Shown here piece after piece: positions 22,983-28,379 of a DNA stretch of 64,000 bases. Position numbers and translations under genes: made by a program. How positions within the stretch are numbered: position 1 is the stretch's first letter; every line of letters starts with the position of its first letter. The DNA lies in NCBI RefSeq assembly GCF_000017505.1, contig NC_009675.1, forward strand, positions 2,790,001-2,854,000. The letters run 5' to 3'. Source of the DNA: Anaeromyxobacter sp. Fw109-5. GTDB taxonomy: Bacteria > Myxococcota > Myxococcia > Myxococcales > Anaeromyxobacteraceae. The notes beneath the pieces were generated by a model. It worked only from the letters and a program-made list of their open reading frames with translations, made no database searches and was not told the origin of the DNA.

Positions 22983-23474
22983 TCAGATCTCCGACGGAGC
23001 GTCCGTCTGATCGGGGATCTTCGCGCTCGCGTTCCCCTGGGCCTCGAGCCGCTCGAACATCCGCTGCATGCGAGCGCCGAGGTCCTCGAGCTCCTCCTTC
23101 GAGAGCGACTTGCGGACCTTCGGGAAGAGCTCCTTCTCCTCCTCCTCGACGTGGTGCTCGACCTGCTCCTTGAGCACCGACATCTTCGCGTCGAACTGCT
23201 CGTCCTCCGCCCCGATCTCGAGGAGGTCGGCCAGGATCCGCTTCATGGACAGGTGCTCCTCCACGGACTCGCGCAGGATCTCCTCCGTGTTCTCCTGCTT
23301 CGACTCCGGGTAGAAGAGCTTCTCCTCGATCTCCGCGTGCATCGCGAGCTGATCGGAGAGCTCCCGGCACACCCGCTCCTTCGTCTTCTTGGCCTTCTCC
23401 CCTGCGCTCTCGAACTCCTCGAAGAGCTCCTCCACCTCTCGGTGCTGCTGCTCCAGCAGGTCGATTGCGTTCAC
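22983..23474 (-). CDS. Hemerythrin-domain protein (Glu-rich)
   Basis: The 163-residue four-helix protein carries the di-iron ligands of hemerythrin HHE domains: His11, His46 and Glu50 (AMHAEIEE), His74, and His107/108 with a Glu run (EHHVEEEEKELFP). It can bind oxygen, NO or iron in the cytoplasm. GTG 23474 is preferred over the upstream ATG 23504, because GGGAGGAAG lies just before the GTG. It is the last gene after the NO reductase on the same strand, with a hairpin between them, and may be partly co-transcribed. Confidence 0.85.
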   Translation of the reverse strand: MNAIDLLEQQHREVEELFEEFESAGEKAKKTKERVCRELSDQLAMHAEIEEKLFYPESKQENTEEILRESVEEHLSMKRILADLLEIGAEDEQFDAKMSVLKEQVEHHVEEEEKELFPKVRKSLSKEELEDLGARMQRMFERLEAQGNASAKIPDQTDAPSEI

Positions 23475-23522
23475 GGTCTTCCTCCCATGGAGGAGCGTAT
23501 GCACGCGCCGCCGGAAAGGCGG

Positions 23523-23554
23523 AGGGGCGAGACCGGCGGACCGGCCTCGCCCCT
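23523..23554 (-). terminator. Hairpin between norB and the hemerythrin gene
   Basis: AGGGGCGAG pairs with CTCGCCCCT, and CCGG with CCGG after one mismatch, around a 4-base loop. It starts about 70 bases after the norB stop on the minus strand. No U-run follows, so it may only partly terminate or may set the 3' end of norB mRNA. Confidence 0.55.
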
Positions 23555-23626
23555 CACCTGCCGCCGGAGGGTGCGGCCCGCCGGCGCTCGTCCGTCCCCG
23601 ACGGACGCCTCACGTGAACCCGCCCG

Positions 23627-25909
23627 TTACGCCGCCCGGCGCACGGTCGACCGCTCCCCGGCCTCGTCGGCGCGCCGGAGCGCGACGTCCTTCACGATGG
23701 CGCGCACCACGAAGGTGAGGAGGAGCCCCGCGCCGCAGAGGAACACGACGTCCGGCACGACCCGCGCCCACGTGACGGCGTGGATGAACGCGCTGCCGGT
23801 CACCTCGGGGCTGCGCGCGTACCAGAGCCCCTTCTCGATCCCGATGGCGAACTGGTAGATGCCCGCGGGGAGGAGCGAGAAGACGATCATGCCGGCGAGG
23901 CCGCCGTTCAGCCCCCAGAACGCGCCCTTGAGGAGCCCGTCGTTCCACGCGTCCTTGCGGACGATGTTGCGCATGGAGAAGAGCATGAGCGCGATGGCGA
24001 GGAAGCCGTACACGCCGAAGAGCGCGCCGTGCGAGTGGATGGGCGTCGTGTTGAGCCCCTGCGCGTAGTAGAGGACGATCGGCGGGTTGATGAGGAACCC
24101 GAGGACGCCCGCGCCGACCGCGTTCCAGAAGGCCACCGCCACGAAGAAGTAGAGCGGCCACCTCCACGCGCTGGCGTTCTCACCGGAGCGCGCGAGCTTC
24201 AGGTTCTCGTAGACCTCGAAGCCGAGCAGCGTGAGCGGGACGATCTCGAGCGCCGAGAACGTCGCGCCGAGCGCCGTGATGAACAGCGGCGAGCCGGTGA
24301 AGTACAGGTGGTGGAACGTCCCGATGATGCCGGAGCCGAGGTAGAGCAGGATGGAGAAGTAGGTCGCGCGGAGCGCCGCCTTCGCCCCGACCGCGCCGAT
24401 GCGGGCGAGGATGAAGGCCAGCGCCACGGTGGCGAACACCTCGAAGAAGTTCTCCACCCAGAGGTGCACCACCCACCAGCGCCAGTAGTCGGCGACCGCG
24501 ATGTGCGTGCCCGGCGTGTAGAACAGGCCGACCGAGTAGAAGAGCGGGATGGTCACCGAGGCGTAGAGGAGCAGGTGCGTGAGCCCGCCCTTGTCCTTCT
24601 CCGCCGCGAGCGCCGGCTTCACCGCGCGGTACACGAGGGCGAGCCAGAGCAGCATCCCGCCGATGAGCGCGACCTGCCAGACGCGCCCGAGCTCGATGTA
24701 CTCGTAGCCCTGGTGGCCGACGAGCCAGCCGTTCGGGCCGGAGAGCTTGCCGCGCACGCCGAGGTAGGTGCCGGCGAGCGCGCCGACCACGACCACCACG
24801 AGCGCGCCGAGGAGCGTGTAGACGAGGGCCTTCTGCCCCTTCGGCTCGTGACCGCTCACCGCCGGGCCGATGAAGAGGCCCGTCGCGAGCCAGCAGGTGG
24901 CGATCCAGAACACCGCCAGCTGGAGGTGCCAGCCGCGCGTCGCCGCGTACGGGAGGAGCTGGCCGATCTCGATGCCGAAGAGCTTGTTGCCCTCGACCGC
25001 GTAGTGGCCGGTCACCGACCCGAGCAGCGCCTGGACGATGAAGAGGAGGATCGCGACGAGGAAGAACGGCAGGGTGGCGCGCTGGCTCGGGGTGGGCTTC
25101 GGCTCGGCGAGCGGGACCACCCGGACCGGCTCCTCGTGGTCCTTCGCGCGGAGGCGCAGGTACGCGTAGATGGCGGCGAACGTGCCGAGGATGAGCAGGA
25201 CGACGGAGAGGATGGACCAGACGAGCGACGACGGGAGCGGGCGGTTCCCGACGAGGGGATCGAAGGGGAAGTTCGCGGTGTAGCTGAACGTCTCCCCGGG
25301 GCGGTTCGTCCCGGCCGACCACGCCGTCCAGAAGAAGAACGACGTCATGGCGCGCGCCGCGGCGGGATCCGCCACGAAGCCCCGAGGGATCGACATCGCG
25401 TCGGACCCCTCGGCGAAGAGCTGGGTGTAGTACCGGACGAGCGCGGGGAACGCCGCGGCCTGGCCCGGTGAGAGCGTGAGCGTGCCGGTGGCGGGGTCGT
25501 AGCGGTTCTGGCGCAGCTCGGCGGCGACCTCGGCCTCGACCCGGCCGCGCTCGCCGGGCGGGAGGGCCTCGAGCCGCTCCTGCGTGTAGGCCGCCGCGTC
25601 CCCCGGCGCGCGGCCGACCGCGAGGCCAGCCGCGGCGAGGCCGATGCGGTGGAGCGCGTCGGCGGACCAGTCTGGCGCGAGGTACGCGCCGTGGCCCCAG
25701 ATCGAGCCGGTCTGCTGGCCACCTCGCGAGAGGTACTGCAGCTGGCCCTGGCGGATGTCCTCGCCGGTCATCACGACCTCTCCGGACGCGGAGACGACGC
25801 GCTCGGGGATGGGCGGCTTGTGCTCGTTGATCTTGGCGCCTCCGAAGATGAGGACCGTGAAGGCGGCGACGATGGTGAACAGCAGGATGGCGCGTCCCTT
25901 GTGGCTCAT
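23627..25909 (-). CDS. norB: Quinol-dependent nitric oxide reductase (qNor)
   Basis: This 760-residue single-subunit enzyme reduces two NO to N2O with quinol electrons in the inner membrane. About 14 transmembrane helices are visible. The extra N-terminal part (residues ~1-210, with a soluble loop starting KINEHKPPIPERVV) is typical of qNor (NorZ) and absent from cytochrome-c-dependent NorB. Catalytic-core motifs include WWVVHLWVENFFE near 480-492 (His and Glu near the non-heme iron) and HHLYFTGSP near 532. GGAGAG precedes ATG 25909. It lies 101 bases downstream of a hemerythrin gene that has a sigma-54 promoter, so NO control is likely. It probably detoxifies NO or serves as a denitrification step. 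Confidence 0.95.
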   Translation of the reverse strand: MSHKGRAILLFTIVAAFTVLIFGGAKINEHKPPIPERVVSASGEVVMTGEDIRQGQLQYLSRGGQQTGSIWGHGAYLAPDWSADALHRIGLAAAGLAVGRAPGDAAAYTQERLEALPPGERGRVEAEVAAELRQNRYDPATGTLTLSPGQAAAFPALVRYYTQLFAEGSDAMSIPRGFVADPAAARAMTSFFFWTAWSAGTNRPGETFSYTANFPFDPLVGNRPLPSSLVWSILSVVLLILGTFAAIYAYLRLRAKDHEEPVRVVPLAEPKPTPSQRATLPFFLVAILLFIVQALLGSVTGHYAVEGNKLFGIEIGQLLPYAATRGWHLQLAVFWIATCWLATGLFIGPAVSGHEPKGQKALVYTLLGALVVVVVGALAGTYLGVRGKLSGPNGWLVGHQGYEYIELGRVWQVALIGGMLLWLALVYRAVKPALAAEKDKGGLTHLLLYASVTIPLFYSVGLFYTPGTHIAVADYWRWWVVHLWVENFFEVFATVALAFILARIGAVGAKAALRATYFSILLYLGSGIIGTFHHLYFTGSPLFITALGATFSALEIVPLTLLGFEVYENLKLARSGENASAWRWPLYFFVAVAFWNAVGAGVLGFLINPPIVLYYAQGLNTTPIHSHGALFGVYGFLAIALMLFSMRNIVRKDAWNDGLLKGAFWGLNGGLAGMIVFSLLPAGIYQFAIGIEKGLWYARSPEVTGSAFIHAVTWARVVPDVVFLCGAGLLLTFVVRAIVKDVALRRADEAGERSTVRRAA

Positions 25910-26010
25910 GAACTCTCCGGACTACGGGGGGGGCGGGCGCACGACGGCCTCCCACGGCAGCCGTGCGGATGTCGGGTGAAGGGGTGGTGGTGCGTCGGGC
26001 TCGGGCGCCG

Positions 26011-26619
26011 CTAGCCGCAGCAGCCGTGGCGGTGCGGGGGCGTCGTGTCGGCCGCCGGGTGGCTGGTCGCGGCGTGACGGAGGACCAGCTCGTCGGCGAG
26101 CGCGTGGTACCGCTCGTGCACGCCCGCGCCGGTCTGCTCGCGCTCGAAGCGCTCGCAGTCCTCGGCCACGCGCTCCATCGCCTCGGGCGGGAGGCGCTGC
26201 TCCGCCATCGGGTAGAGGATCGCGTCCTCCTTGTGGATGTGGGCGTGGAGCAGGTTCGCGTAGGCGGCGGCGTCGTCGGAGATGGTCTGGAGGTCGGCCG
26301 GCGTCCACGGACCGTCCTGGGCCGCCTTGGCGGCCAGCGCGCCCACGAGCGCCCTGCCCTGCGCGTGCTCGTGCAGCATGACCGCGACCGGGCCGCCGTT
26401 CCGCGGGAACCCGTGCGCGACCATCGCGGCGAACAGGATGTCCTCCTCCTTGCCGTGGTGGCAGCGATCGGCGAACTCGCGGATGAAGGAGACGAACCGG
26501 CCGAGCTCGGCCTTGTCGCCGGTGCCCTTGCGCCGGGCCTCCTCGGCGAATCCGACGAGGGCGTCGAGCACGCGCTCGATCACGCGGTGCTCGTTCATGA
26601 GGGTCTCGATGGCGTCCAT
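26011..26619 (-). CDS. Hemerythrin-domain protein with His/Cys tail
   Basis: The product has 202 residues. Di-iron ligand candidates are His11, His54/55 with Glu58/59, His83/85, His125/127/129 and Glu131, the HHE-domain pattern. Residues ~155-195 form a linker, and the C terminus ends HRHGCCG, a metal- or redox-active-looking tail. ATG 26619 has an AGAGGA site and is the first start inside the sigma-54 transcript; longer starts upstream lie before the promoter and cannot be used from it. It is the first gene of the norB operon. It likely binds NO, oxygen or iron, similar in spirit to YtfE/RIC proteins. Confidence 0.85.
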   Translation of the reverse strand: MDAIETLMNEHRVIERVLDALVGFAEEARRKGTGDKAELGRFVSFIREFADRCHHGKEEDILFAAMVAHGFPRNGGPVAVMLHEHAQGRALVGALAAKAAQDGPWTPADLQTISDDAAAYANLLHAHIHKEDAILYPMAEQRLPPEAMERVAEDCERFEREQTGAGVHERYHALADELVLRHAATSHPAADTTPPHRHGCCG

Positions 26620-26691
26620 GGCTTCCTCTCGGCTCGGGCGGGCCACCCGCCCCGGCGGTCGTCCGACGGGACGCACCTGGCCGTGAGCTAG

Positions 26692-26707
26692 AGCAAGGTC
26701 GTTGCCA
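26692..26707 (-). promoter_or_regulatory. Sigma-54 promoter of the hemerythrin-norB operon
   Basis: On the minus strand the sequence is TGGCAACGACCTTGCT: a -24 GG and a -12 GC separated by exactly 10 bases, close to the consensus TGGCAC-N5-TTGCT. The transcript would start near 26681, leaving a leader of about 62 bases to ATG 26619. The divergent gene at 26811 encodes a sigma-54 activator, which supports the call. Confidence 0.82.
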
Positions 26708-26810
26708 GGCGGACAAGTGTACGTATCGGCTGGCGTTTTCTGCCCTGCGCCGCGATCCTGCACCCGCGGGCGGTTGACTCGCACACCGTCATTTCGTTAC
26801 TCACCCGTCC

Positions 26811-28379
26811 ATGGTTGGACCGCTCCTGCCCGTCGTCTCGCACGAGGACCCGCACCGCCGCATCGTCGAGGAGGCGATCGAGGCGGTGCTCTCCACGGTC
26901 GATCTCGCCTCGGTGCTCGATCGCACCGGCCACCTGCTGCGGCGCCACTTTGGCGAGACGCGCGTCGCCATCAACCGGATCTCCTCCGGCGACCCGACCC
27001 GTGCAGAGGTCGTGCTCGTGTCGGATCCGCGCCAGCCCTCGCCGGAGCTCGGGACCTCGTTCCCGCTCGCGGGCTCCGCGGCCGGAAAGGCGCTGGGCGA
27101 GCGGACGCCCTGCATCCTCGACCCGCTCCAGCCGAAGACCCCCCGCTATCGCGAGGAGCCGCTCCTCGCCGCCTACGGCTACGGCTCCCTCGTCTCGTTC
27201 CCGCTCGTGTTCGAGAACGAGGTCCTCGGCACGCTCGACATCGCCCACCCGCCCGCGGAGGGGCTCCTCGACTGCTGCTACGAGGTCGCGAAGCAGGTGG
27301 CGCACCTCGTCGCCATCGCCCTGCACAACAGCCTCATGGTCGAGGAGGTGCAGCGCCTCAACCGGCTCCTCGGCCGCGAGAACGCCCTCCTGAAGGAGGA
27401 GATCCGCCAGATCAAGCGCGACGCACGCTACGTGGCGGAGAGCCCGGCCATGAAGGACGTGGTCGAGCGCGTGCGGCTCGTGGCGCCCTCGACCACCACC
27501 GTCCTGGTCCGCGGCGAGACCGGCGTCGGCAAGGAGGGGCTCGCGCGGATGGTCCACGAGTTCAGCCCCCGCTTCAACGCGCCCTTCGTCCCGGTGAACC
27601 TGGGGGCCATCCCCGAGGGGCTCATCGAGAGCGAGCTGTTCGGGCACGAGAAGGGCGCCTTCACCGGCGCGAGCCGTCGCCGGCCGGGCCGGTTCGAGCA
27701 GGCCGACGGCGGGACCGTCTTCCTCGACGAGGTGGGCGACGCGCCCCCGTCCGTGCAGGTGCGGCTGCTGCGGGTGCTGCAGGAGCGCGTCGTGGAGCGC
27801 GTCGGCGGCACCGAGCCGGTCAAGGTCGACGTGCGGGTGGTCGCCGCGACGAACCGCAACCTGGAGGAGATGGTCGCCCGCGGCACGTTCCGCGCCGACC
27901 TCTACTACCGGCTCGCGGTCTTCCCCATCGAGCTGCCGCCCCTGCGCGAGCGGCGCGACGAGATCCGCCCCCTCGCCATGCACTTCCTCGCGCGCCACGC
28001 GACGGCCATGCACCGCCGCCCGCCGCGGGTGGGCGAGGACGCCTGGCGCGCGATCGAGGCGCACGACTGGCCCGGCAACGTCCGCGAGCTCGAGAACTTC
28101 CTGCAGCGCGCGCTCATCCTCTCGCCCGGGCCCGAGCTGTCGCTCCCCGAGCTCCCGGCGCGCCTCCGGCCGGACGGCACCCCCTCCGCGCCCGCCGAGG
28201 CCGCGGCGCCGGGGAAGTTCGAGGACGAGGTCCGCGCGCTCATCGAGCGCGCCCTCTCGCACGCCGGCGGCCGGGTGTACGGACCGGGCGGAGCGGCCTC
28301 CCTGCTCGGCCTGCGTCCGACGACGCTGCAGGGGAAGATGAAGAAGTACGGCGTCCCCGCGCCGCGCGCGCGAGGGTGA
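26811..28379 (+). CDS. Sigma-54-dependent transcriptional activator with GAF domain (NorR/FhlA-like)
   Basis: The protein has 522 residues in three parts. An N-terminal GAF sensor domain spans ~25-170. A AAA+ domain spans ~205-430, with Walker A GETGVGKE near 234, the sigma-54-contacting GAFTGA loop near 280 and Walker B GGTVFLDEVGD near 303. A C-terminal Fis-type helix-turn-helix follows (~475-515). It is divergent from the hemerythrin-norB operon and its sigma-54 promoter, the arrangement of NorR in other bacteria. Direct NO sensing is an inference; the GAF domain also resembles FhlA-type sensors. A CGGT-N10-ACCG element at 26771-26788 is a weak enhancer candidate. Confidence 0.85.
   Translation: MVGPLLPVVSHEDPHRRIVEEAIEAVLSTVDLASVLDRTGHLLRRHFGETRVAINRISSGDPTRAEVVLVSDPRQPSPELGTSFPLAGSAAGKALGERTPCILDPLQPKTPRYREEPLLAAYGYGSLVSFPLVFENEVLGTLDIAHPPAEGLLDCCYEVAKQVAHLVAIALHNSLMVEEVQRLNRLLGRENALLKEEIRQIKRDARYVAESPAMKDVVERVRLVAPSTTTVLVRGETGVGKEGLARMVHEFSPRFNAPFVPVNLGAIPEGLIESELFGHEKGAFTGASRRRPGRFEQADGGTVFLDEVGDAPPSVQVRLLRVLQERVVERVGGTEPVKVDVRVVAATNRNLEEMVARGTFRADLYYRLAVFPIELPPLRERRDEIRPLAMHFLARHATAMHRRPPRVGEDAWRAIEAHDWPGNVRELENFLQRALILSPGPELSLPELPARLRPDGTPSAPAEAAAPGKFEDEVRALIERALSHAGGRVYGPGGAASLLGLRPTTLQGKMKKYGVPAPRARG

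Follow-up and report, generated by a model that had tools for sequence, protein, structure and literature searches.

A putative sigma-54 regulon of hemerythrin and nitrogen-oxide genes in Anaeromyxobacteraceae and its candidate activator, a likely non-orthologous counterpart of NorR

Introduction

Anaeromyxobacter is a common soil reducer of nitrate and N2O. The described systems closest to the locus analysed here are two nitric-oxide reductase loci. In Cupriavidus necator H16 (pHG1) norR is divergent to norA(ytfE)-norB, giving the arrangement of a sigma-54 activator, a di-iron hemerythrin-like gene and a qNor-type norB. On the Desulfosarcina ovata plasmid Do28_1 an activator annotated as NorR is divergent to norB, which is followed by a hemerythrin gene. 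According to the accessible part of PMC2941729, the iron-site residues of the NorR GAF domain are R75, Y98, D99, H111 and C113, and the portion available of PMC1274295 gives the NorR enhancer as three GT-N7-AC sites. The latter source, to the same extent, also describes the NsrR, HcpR and DNR regulons, in which NO reductase, di-iron proteins and nitrogen-oxide genes come under a single regulator; the regulators there are of Rrf2 or FNR type, unlike the sigma-54 activator described below. The word Anaeromyxobacter is absent from the available text of PMC1274295, and no description of a regulator of Anaeromyxobacter denitrification genes was found in the open-licence literature.

Here we analyse a locus whose neighbourhood we judge to be of a known kind, and whose regulator (ACT), enhancer code and proposed hemerythrin/ywiC/napA regulon we judge to be new, none of the three having been found in the open-licence literature. 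The analysis puts forward a regulator by name, together with its probable binding code and a set of targets that can be tested, and it places several hemerythrins and YwiC in a nitrogen-oxide context.

Results

The window is a 64,000-base stretch of Anaeromyxobacter sp. Fw109-5 DNA (positions 2790001-2854000 of a single 5,277,990-base contig; the genome is labelled G000 among its relatives). The layout proposed for it in the initial annotation was borne out (Table 1). The activator gene divergent to hr1 encodes GAF, AAA+ and Fis-type HTH domains in that order, with a GAFTGA loop from residue 282. The norB gene after the hemerythrin encodes one chain of about 760 residues, in which a COX1 domain is fused to an N-terminal cytochrome-c-like domain as in qNor-type enzymes, and the product is 46.8% identical to Cupriavidus NorB. 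The second hemerythrin gene lies behind a hairpin, the gap before it folding at -94.6 kcal/mol (z -2.87; 2 of 200 shuffles folded equally well). No long T run was seen after the hairpin within this gap, and a scan found no enhancer or promoter for hr2 within 1000 bases; perhaps the hairpin separates hr2 from norB as a site of processing or attenuation.

Table 1. Features of the locus, in window coordinates
Feature	Position	Strand	Assignment and basis
ACT	26811..28379	+	One-component sigma-54 activator; Pfam GAF, Sigma54_activat, AAA lid, HTH_8; NCBIfam scores below all cut-offs shown
Distal enhancer palindrome TAACGAAATGACGGTG	26784..26799	-	Starts 92 bases before the -24 box; scan
Proximal enhancer palindrome CAACCGCCCGCGGGTG	26761..26776	-	Starts at -69; scan
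Sigma-54 promoter, -24/-12, TGGCAACGACCTTGCT	26692..26707	-	Pattern match and conservation
Hr1	26011..26619	-	Di-iron protein; Hemerythrin domain, 81 bits (Pfam); YtfE-like ligand spacing
norB	23627..25909	-	qNor-type nitric-oxide reductase; PF22085 and PF00115 (Pfam)
norB-hr2 gap	23475..23626	-	Strong hairpin
Hr2	22983..23474	-	Hemerythrin domain (Pfam); related to PA2171 family

The sigma-54 promoter that had been noted before hr1 is unique in the window, where the pattern TGGCA-N6-TTGCW matches once against 0.01 expected. The box alone is little proof, because across the 5.28-Mb genome the looser pattern TGGCN7TTGCW has 25 matches and its reverse has 61. Among 24 family genomes compared, ACT was found in 18 (17 directly and G023 via its GAF domain), and all 16 ACT|hr1 gaps that were excised contain a GG-N10-GC box, at a distance of between 28 and 94 bases upstream of hr1.

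A second element recurs in these 16 promoters. The palindrome ACC-N8-GGT occurs 19 times in them, compared with a mean of 0.96 and a largest value of 4 in 50 mononucleotide shuffles. The palindromes stand in tandem, 22-23 bases apart; counted from where the -24 box begins, their starts are near -67 and -90. The pooled sites, which include sites picked with the motif itself, give the consensus YAMC-N8-GGTG, and the two palindromes of the window are degenerate copies of it. Only 11 bases separate the distal palindrome from the start codon of ACT, and for this reason ACT probably limits its own transcription by autoregulation.

The sigma-54 box and the two palindromes were then joined in a combined score. 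Its weights were chosen after several sites were known, so that contrasts in the score express separation and are not P values. Box and enhancer together score 23.3-27.1 in all 18 genomes with ACT, lying before hr1 in 17 of them and before norB-hr1 in G020, where norB precedes hr1 and ACT is convergent. The hr1 genes of G014 and G016, in which ACT was not found, reach only 17.0 and 18.8. In 143 kb of control DNA the maximum was 20.7. Stretches of the Fw109-5 genome totalling 230 kb gave at least 21.5 only at ywiC (25.3) and at one borderline place (21.5), and 854 kb from other phyla contained one place at or above this value (22.0).

The signal extends to genes elsewhere in the Fw109-5 genome. 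A palindrome scan allowing two mismatches returned 87 places, most of them probably due to chance, and matches were kept only when accompanied by a sigma-54 box; the scan placed matches before other hemerythrin genes. A palindrome with at least 11 of 16 bases matching lies within 170 bases of four of the 25 strict sigma-54 boxes. These four stand before hr1, the hemerythrin-PAS genes 1876283 (whose product is a DUF438-hemerythrin-PAS-DUF2249 protein) and 3683655, and ywiC (box at 607741). The genome holds 20 hemerythrin-domain matches in 5.28 Mb, several in multi-domain proteins; four of the 20 genes have combined scores of 23.1-25.1, including one with an imperfect -12 element (box 1808166), and the remaining 16 score at most 19.4 or are without a box. 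The second qNor gene of the genome (4487542; L074) was considered as a member and rejected, as no enhancer/promoter there reached 21.5.

In relatives, the family pattern scan was noisy inside genes, and 12 promoter-like places were chosen by eye among the matches listed; apart from the hr1 loci, most of the relatives' loci that were scored had been fetched for holding a match. A YwiC gene stands behind the signal in six genomes (G000 by Pfam; G001, G002, G003, G004 and G008 by the same N-terminal sequence), and a DUF438 hemerythrin gene does so in G000 (Pfam) and in G003 and G005 (same N-terminus). NapA genes follow the signal in G003, which also has NapB, and in G022, both products exceeding the NCBI NapA cut-offs. 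Three genomes (G009, G020 and G021) have a signal copy at norB itself; in G009 the sites lie nearer to the box than usual by roughly one helical turn, with starts about 77 and 55 bases ahead of it, and the promoter falls below 21.5 in the combined score. Among the further genes behind the signal, that of G004 codes for a cupin by Pfam, and that of G007 for what looks by eye like a similar protein. G001 has a PAS gene (Pfam) with a hemerythrin gene after it, a PAS gene was recognized by eye in G020, and the G017 product is DUF2249-like, its 26.5 bits falling short of the 29.5 cut-off. We know of no proven role in NO metabolism for the cupin, PAS or YwiC families. The promoter, the enhancer, their conservation, their co-occurrence with ACT and the target list are all read directly from DNA sequence. 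In Fw109-5 the regulon predicted in this way would comprise hr1-norB-hr2, ywiC and three additional hemerythrin genes; in relatives it would take in norB alone, napAB and the genes for DUF2249-like, cupin and PAS proteins.

In G001, G002 and G006 another sigma-54 activator gene, at a distance of two genes, has a weaker copy of the signal (22.4-22.7) in front of it (L077 12031, plus strand; L078 and L082, near a gene beside metX). It is possible that this forms a regulatory cascade.

Which parts of the locus travel with ACT bears on what is being controlled. Directly after hr1, norB is found in 10 of the 18 genomes with ACT, and in G020 it comes before hr1. In G009 the two genes are 12 kb apart and in G021 they are on different contigs. 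Searches of G017, G018, G019, G022 and G023, all with ACT and hr1, found no norB nearby; these five include the g5 genomes, and G022 has a 45%-identical qNor at another place in its genome. In 7 of the 18, then, norB is at another place or was not found, so that the constant partner of ACT is hr1 and not norB. Hr2 directly follows norB in 8 of the 24 genomes, all of the same genus as Fw109-5. The comparison of hemerythrin-norB order across relatives that had been suggested shows the direct hr1-norB pairing in part of the family only. Likewise, the idea of a sigma-54-controlled NO module holds for its nitrogen-oxide neighbours and co-regulated genes and is lost for the module as the unit of control, because hr1 is the constant partner and other hemerythrins, ywiC and napA carry the signal. 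The arrangement of a qNor between two hemerythrins is real; its description as unusual has to be softened, given 20 hemerythrin matches in the genome and the hemerythrin, qNor and NorR genes annotated together in Cupriavidus and Desulfosarcina.

Neighbours of hr1 vary in the family. In G009 (L069, 5642-19501) a Sec-dependent nosZ over the NCBI cut-off lies between hr1 and norB, together with more nos-like and electron-transfer genes seen by eye, so that hr1 is the first gene of a denitrification cluster in that genome. The g4 genus, in which no ACT was found, has hr1 next to an Rrf2-family regulator gene in G014 (L087, 4519-5563) and to a narG-like gene, cut by the contig end, in G016 (L088, 3-3056); this hemerythrin thus occurs with different regulators or partners.

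The structural class of Hr1 was examined through its ligands. A profile search placed YtfE structures first (E 2.1e-8). Residues H11, H54, E58, H85, H127 and E131 are invariant in 14 sequences, giving the pattern H, HxxxE, H, HxxxE, and H54, E58, H85, H127 and E131 align with YtfE ligands. The accessible part of PMC5701242 names H129, H160 and E133 among these ligands. Hr1 has a shorter N-terminal part than the YtfE/RIC/DnrN/NorA proteins, although these are its nearest solved structures. We take H204 and E208 to be further YtfE ligands. Scores against the NCBIfam RIC, YtfE and DnrN models are 26.0, 29.3 and 26.9 bits, far from the cut-offs of 204.7, 254 and 300, and 29 of 93 residues are identical to the Cupriavidus norA/ytfE product. 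Hr1 thus resembles the YtfE/NorA kind of di-iron protein by ligand pattern, and was rejected as an oxygen carrier since the ligand spacing fits YtfE better; the rejection concerns Hr1 alone, and Hr2 or the remaining hemerythrins may still carry oxygen. The matches to hr1 in four genomes contain a TGA and that in one a TAG; on translation these are ordinary C-terminal stops past which the alignment ran, and a selenoprotein was rejected. Hr2 covers nearly the whole NCBIfam model NF053874 (PA2171) at 105.2 bits, below its cut-off of 190; by NCBI naming the PA2171 family is a ribosome-binding persister protein.

That the hemerythrins handle NO, oxygen or iron had been suggested at the outset. Chemistry on NO or iron fits the YtfE-like Hr1 better, and oxygen delivery fits it less. 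In the sections available, PMC9045102 reports that in Ralstonia solanacearum NorR is required for norA and NorA helps against NO, PMC5701242 that a hemerythrin-PAS protein of Desulfovibrio desulfuricans is up with NO, and PMC6282519 that DUF2249 proteins of Thermus are encoded alongside nitrate respiration. Together with the likeness to YtfE and the nor gene order in Cupriavidus and Desulfosarcina, these analogies make NO chemistry the likeliest role. The hemerythrins may act by binding or scavenging NO or by shielding iron centres, with NorB as the enzyme that turns NO into N2O. A local oxygen- or iron-stress operon, with hemerythrins that buffer O2 or store iron and an incidental link to qNor, would accord with the abundance of hemerythrin matches in this genome and with the five relatives that keep ACT and hr1 without a close norB. 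We consider it very unlikely, as the invariant Hr1 residues match YtfE ligands, the signal is common to napA and norB, and hr1 adjoins a nos gene, an Rrf2 regulator or a narG-like gene in G009, G014 and G016.

The initial annotation had taken the activator to be of NorR type, and in its fullest form this reading makes ACT the myxobacterial NorR, a non-haem iron GAF sensor of NO that controls the adjacent hemerythrin-norB operon only. ACT does have the domain order of NorR and a Cupriavidus-like divergence from a hemerythrin-qNor operon, and its AAA+ domain is identical to that of three NorR proteins at 110-117 of 240 positions. Asp96, which we presume to be among the NorR GAF site residues, is kept in all 16 ACT sequences of the alignment. 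However, ACT scores 323.9 bits against NCBIfam NF003451 (NorR), for which the curated cut-off is 476; NifA and FhlA-type models score it higher, yet below their own cut-offs. Its GAF domain matches those of the three NorR proteins at only 19-32 of 153-158 aligned positions, compared with 63-70 of 158-162 between NorR proteins (two pairs compared). In the same alignment R75, Y98, H111 and C113 are missing from 16 of 16 ACT sequences and D99 is kept in 4, whereas the Desulfosarcina activator, which lies in a different gene order, has the NorR iron-site residues. The NorR form of the enhancer, GGT-N7-ACC, occurs once in the 16 promoters, and unlinked genes also carry the signal. On the NF003451 score, the GAF divergence, the missing iron-site residues and the different enhancer, ACT was rejected as a NorR orthologue, and the reading as a whole is highly improbable. 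By these tests the locus differs from that of Cupriavidus in an activator not orthologous to NorR, in a YAMC-N8-GGTG enhancer linked to it instead of GT-N7-AC, and in hemerythrin, ywiC and napA as extra targets. No NorR above the NF003451 cut-off was found in the 24 family genomes, in each of which up to 40 candidates were scored; one of 14 control genomes had one.

Finally, co-occurrence of activator and signal was followed across the phylum. Of the 18 family genomes with ACT, 16 contain the strict pattern (the exceptions are G006 and G023), as against none of the six where ACT was not found. Among these six, G007 (66% complete) and G012 are incomplete genomes in which norB lies at the end of a contig; the looser score does give one signal in G007 (24.8). 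Outside the family the strict pattern occurs in 42 of 171 genomes, with 56 matches in all, which entered the comparison of spacing only. Lengths of 81-85 or 104-108 account for 24 of 26 family matches (23 distinct promoters) and 19 of 56 outside, where chance corresponds to 10 of 31 lengths; these length windows were fixed only after the pattern scan of the family, and related genomes are not independent. Of 195 Myxococcota genomes searched for the ACT GAF domain, 20 gave a match, namely the 18 of the family and two outliers. In one outlier, G157, ACT is divergent to hr1 with both sites (score 23.7), and in the other, G165, the gene opposite ACT is a different one and the sites between the two are a variant.

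These data also bear on whether ACT is the protein that reads the palindromes. Family genomes have many sigma-54 activators, so another of them could use these sites in a regulon that is nonetheless real, with ACT serving another promoter; the second activator gene behind a weak copy of the signal in three relatives would be a candidate. This is unlikely, however, given that signal and ACT co-occur in 16 of 18 genomes against 0 of 6, that in the excised family loci and in G157 ACT keeps its divergent position to an hr1 with the signal, and that in G165 the variant sites lie between ACT and an otherwise different gene. We infer that ACT is the palindrome-binding protein.

Discussion

Taken together, these results make it probable that ACT binds the tandem palindromes and opens the sigma-54 promoters of a nitrogen-oxide regulon. 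In the proposed mechanism, nitrate or NO respiration would switch on the GAF domain of ACT, which would then assemble at both palindromes and remodel the sigma-54 polymerase at the -24/-12 box, thereby raising NO reductase and the di-iron proteins and, in some species, Nap as well. The GAF domain may sense NO or a close product of nitrate respiration, at a site different from that of NorR. We conclude from the comparisons above that this sigma-54 regulon is apparently specific to the lineage and serves nitrate/NO respiration and di-iron defence, with a putative non-orthologous stand-in for NorR as its regulator. If so, ACT would be a second sigma-54 sensor of a gas or nitrogen oxide beside NorR, seemingly independent of the sensing site of NorR.

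A bolder form of this model, to which we give an even chance, is that a sigma-54 activator whose sensor site is unrelated has taken the place of NorR in Anaeromyxobacteraceae and acts as the master switch of nitrogen-oxide respiration. One tandem enhancer code would couple nitrate reductase, NO reductase, YwiC and the hemerythrins, and the GAF domain would sense NO or nitrite via a new site, with H146 and C156 as candidates. Both residues are among the ACT-specific invariant positions in an alignment of 19 sequences, and it is our guess that they bind metal.

Two minor observations concern distant relatives of ACT. In G165, which has the most distant ACT homologue (L153, 2186 onward), the facing gene appears by eye to encode a zinc-ribbon/HD-like protein, and the variant sites end in CGTTTTC instead of CGGTG. 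A whole-activator search of genome contigs, from which the best 80 loci were kept and reused as control DNA, retrieved mostly the common AAA+ part of other activators; the best of these 80, L259, matches at 69% over residues 217-515 alone and could be a partial relative.
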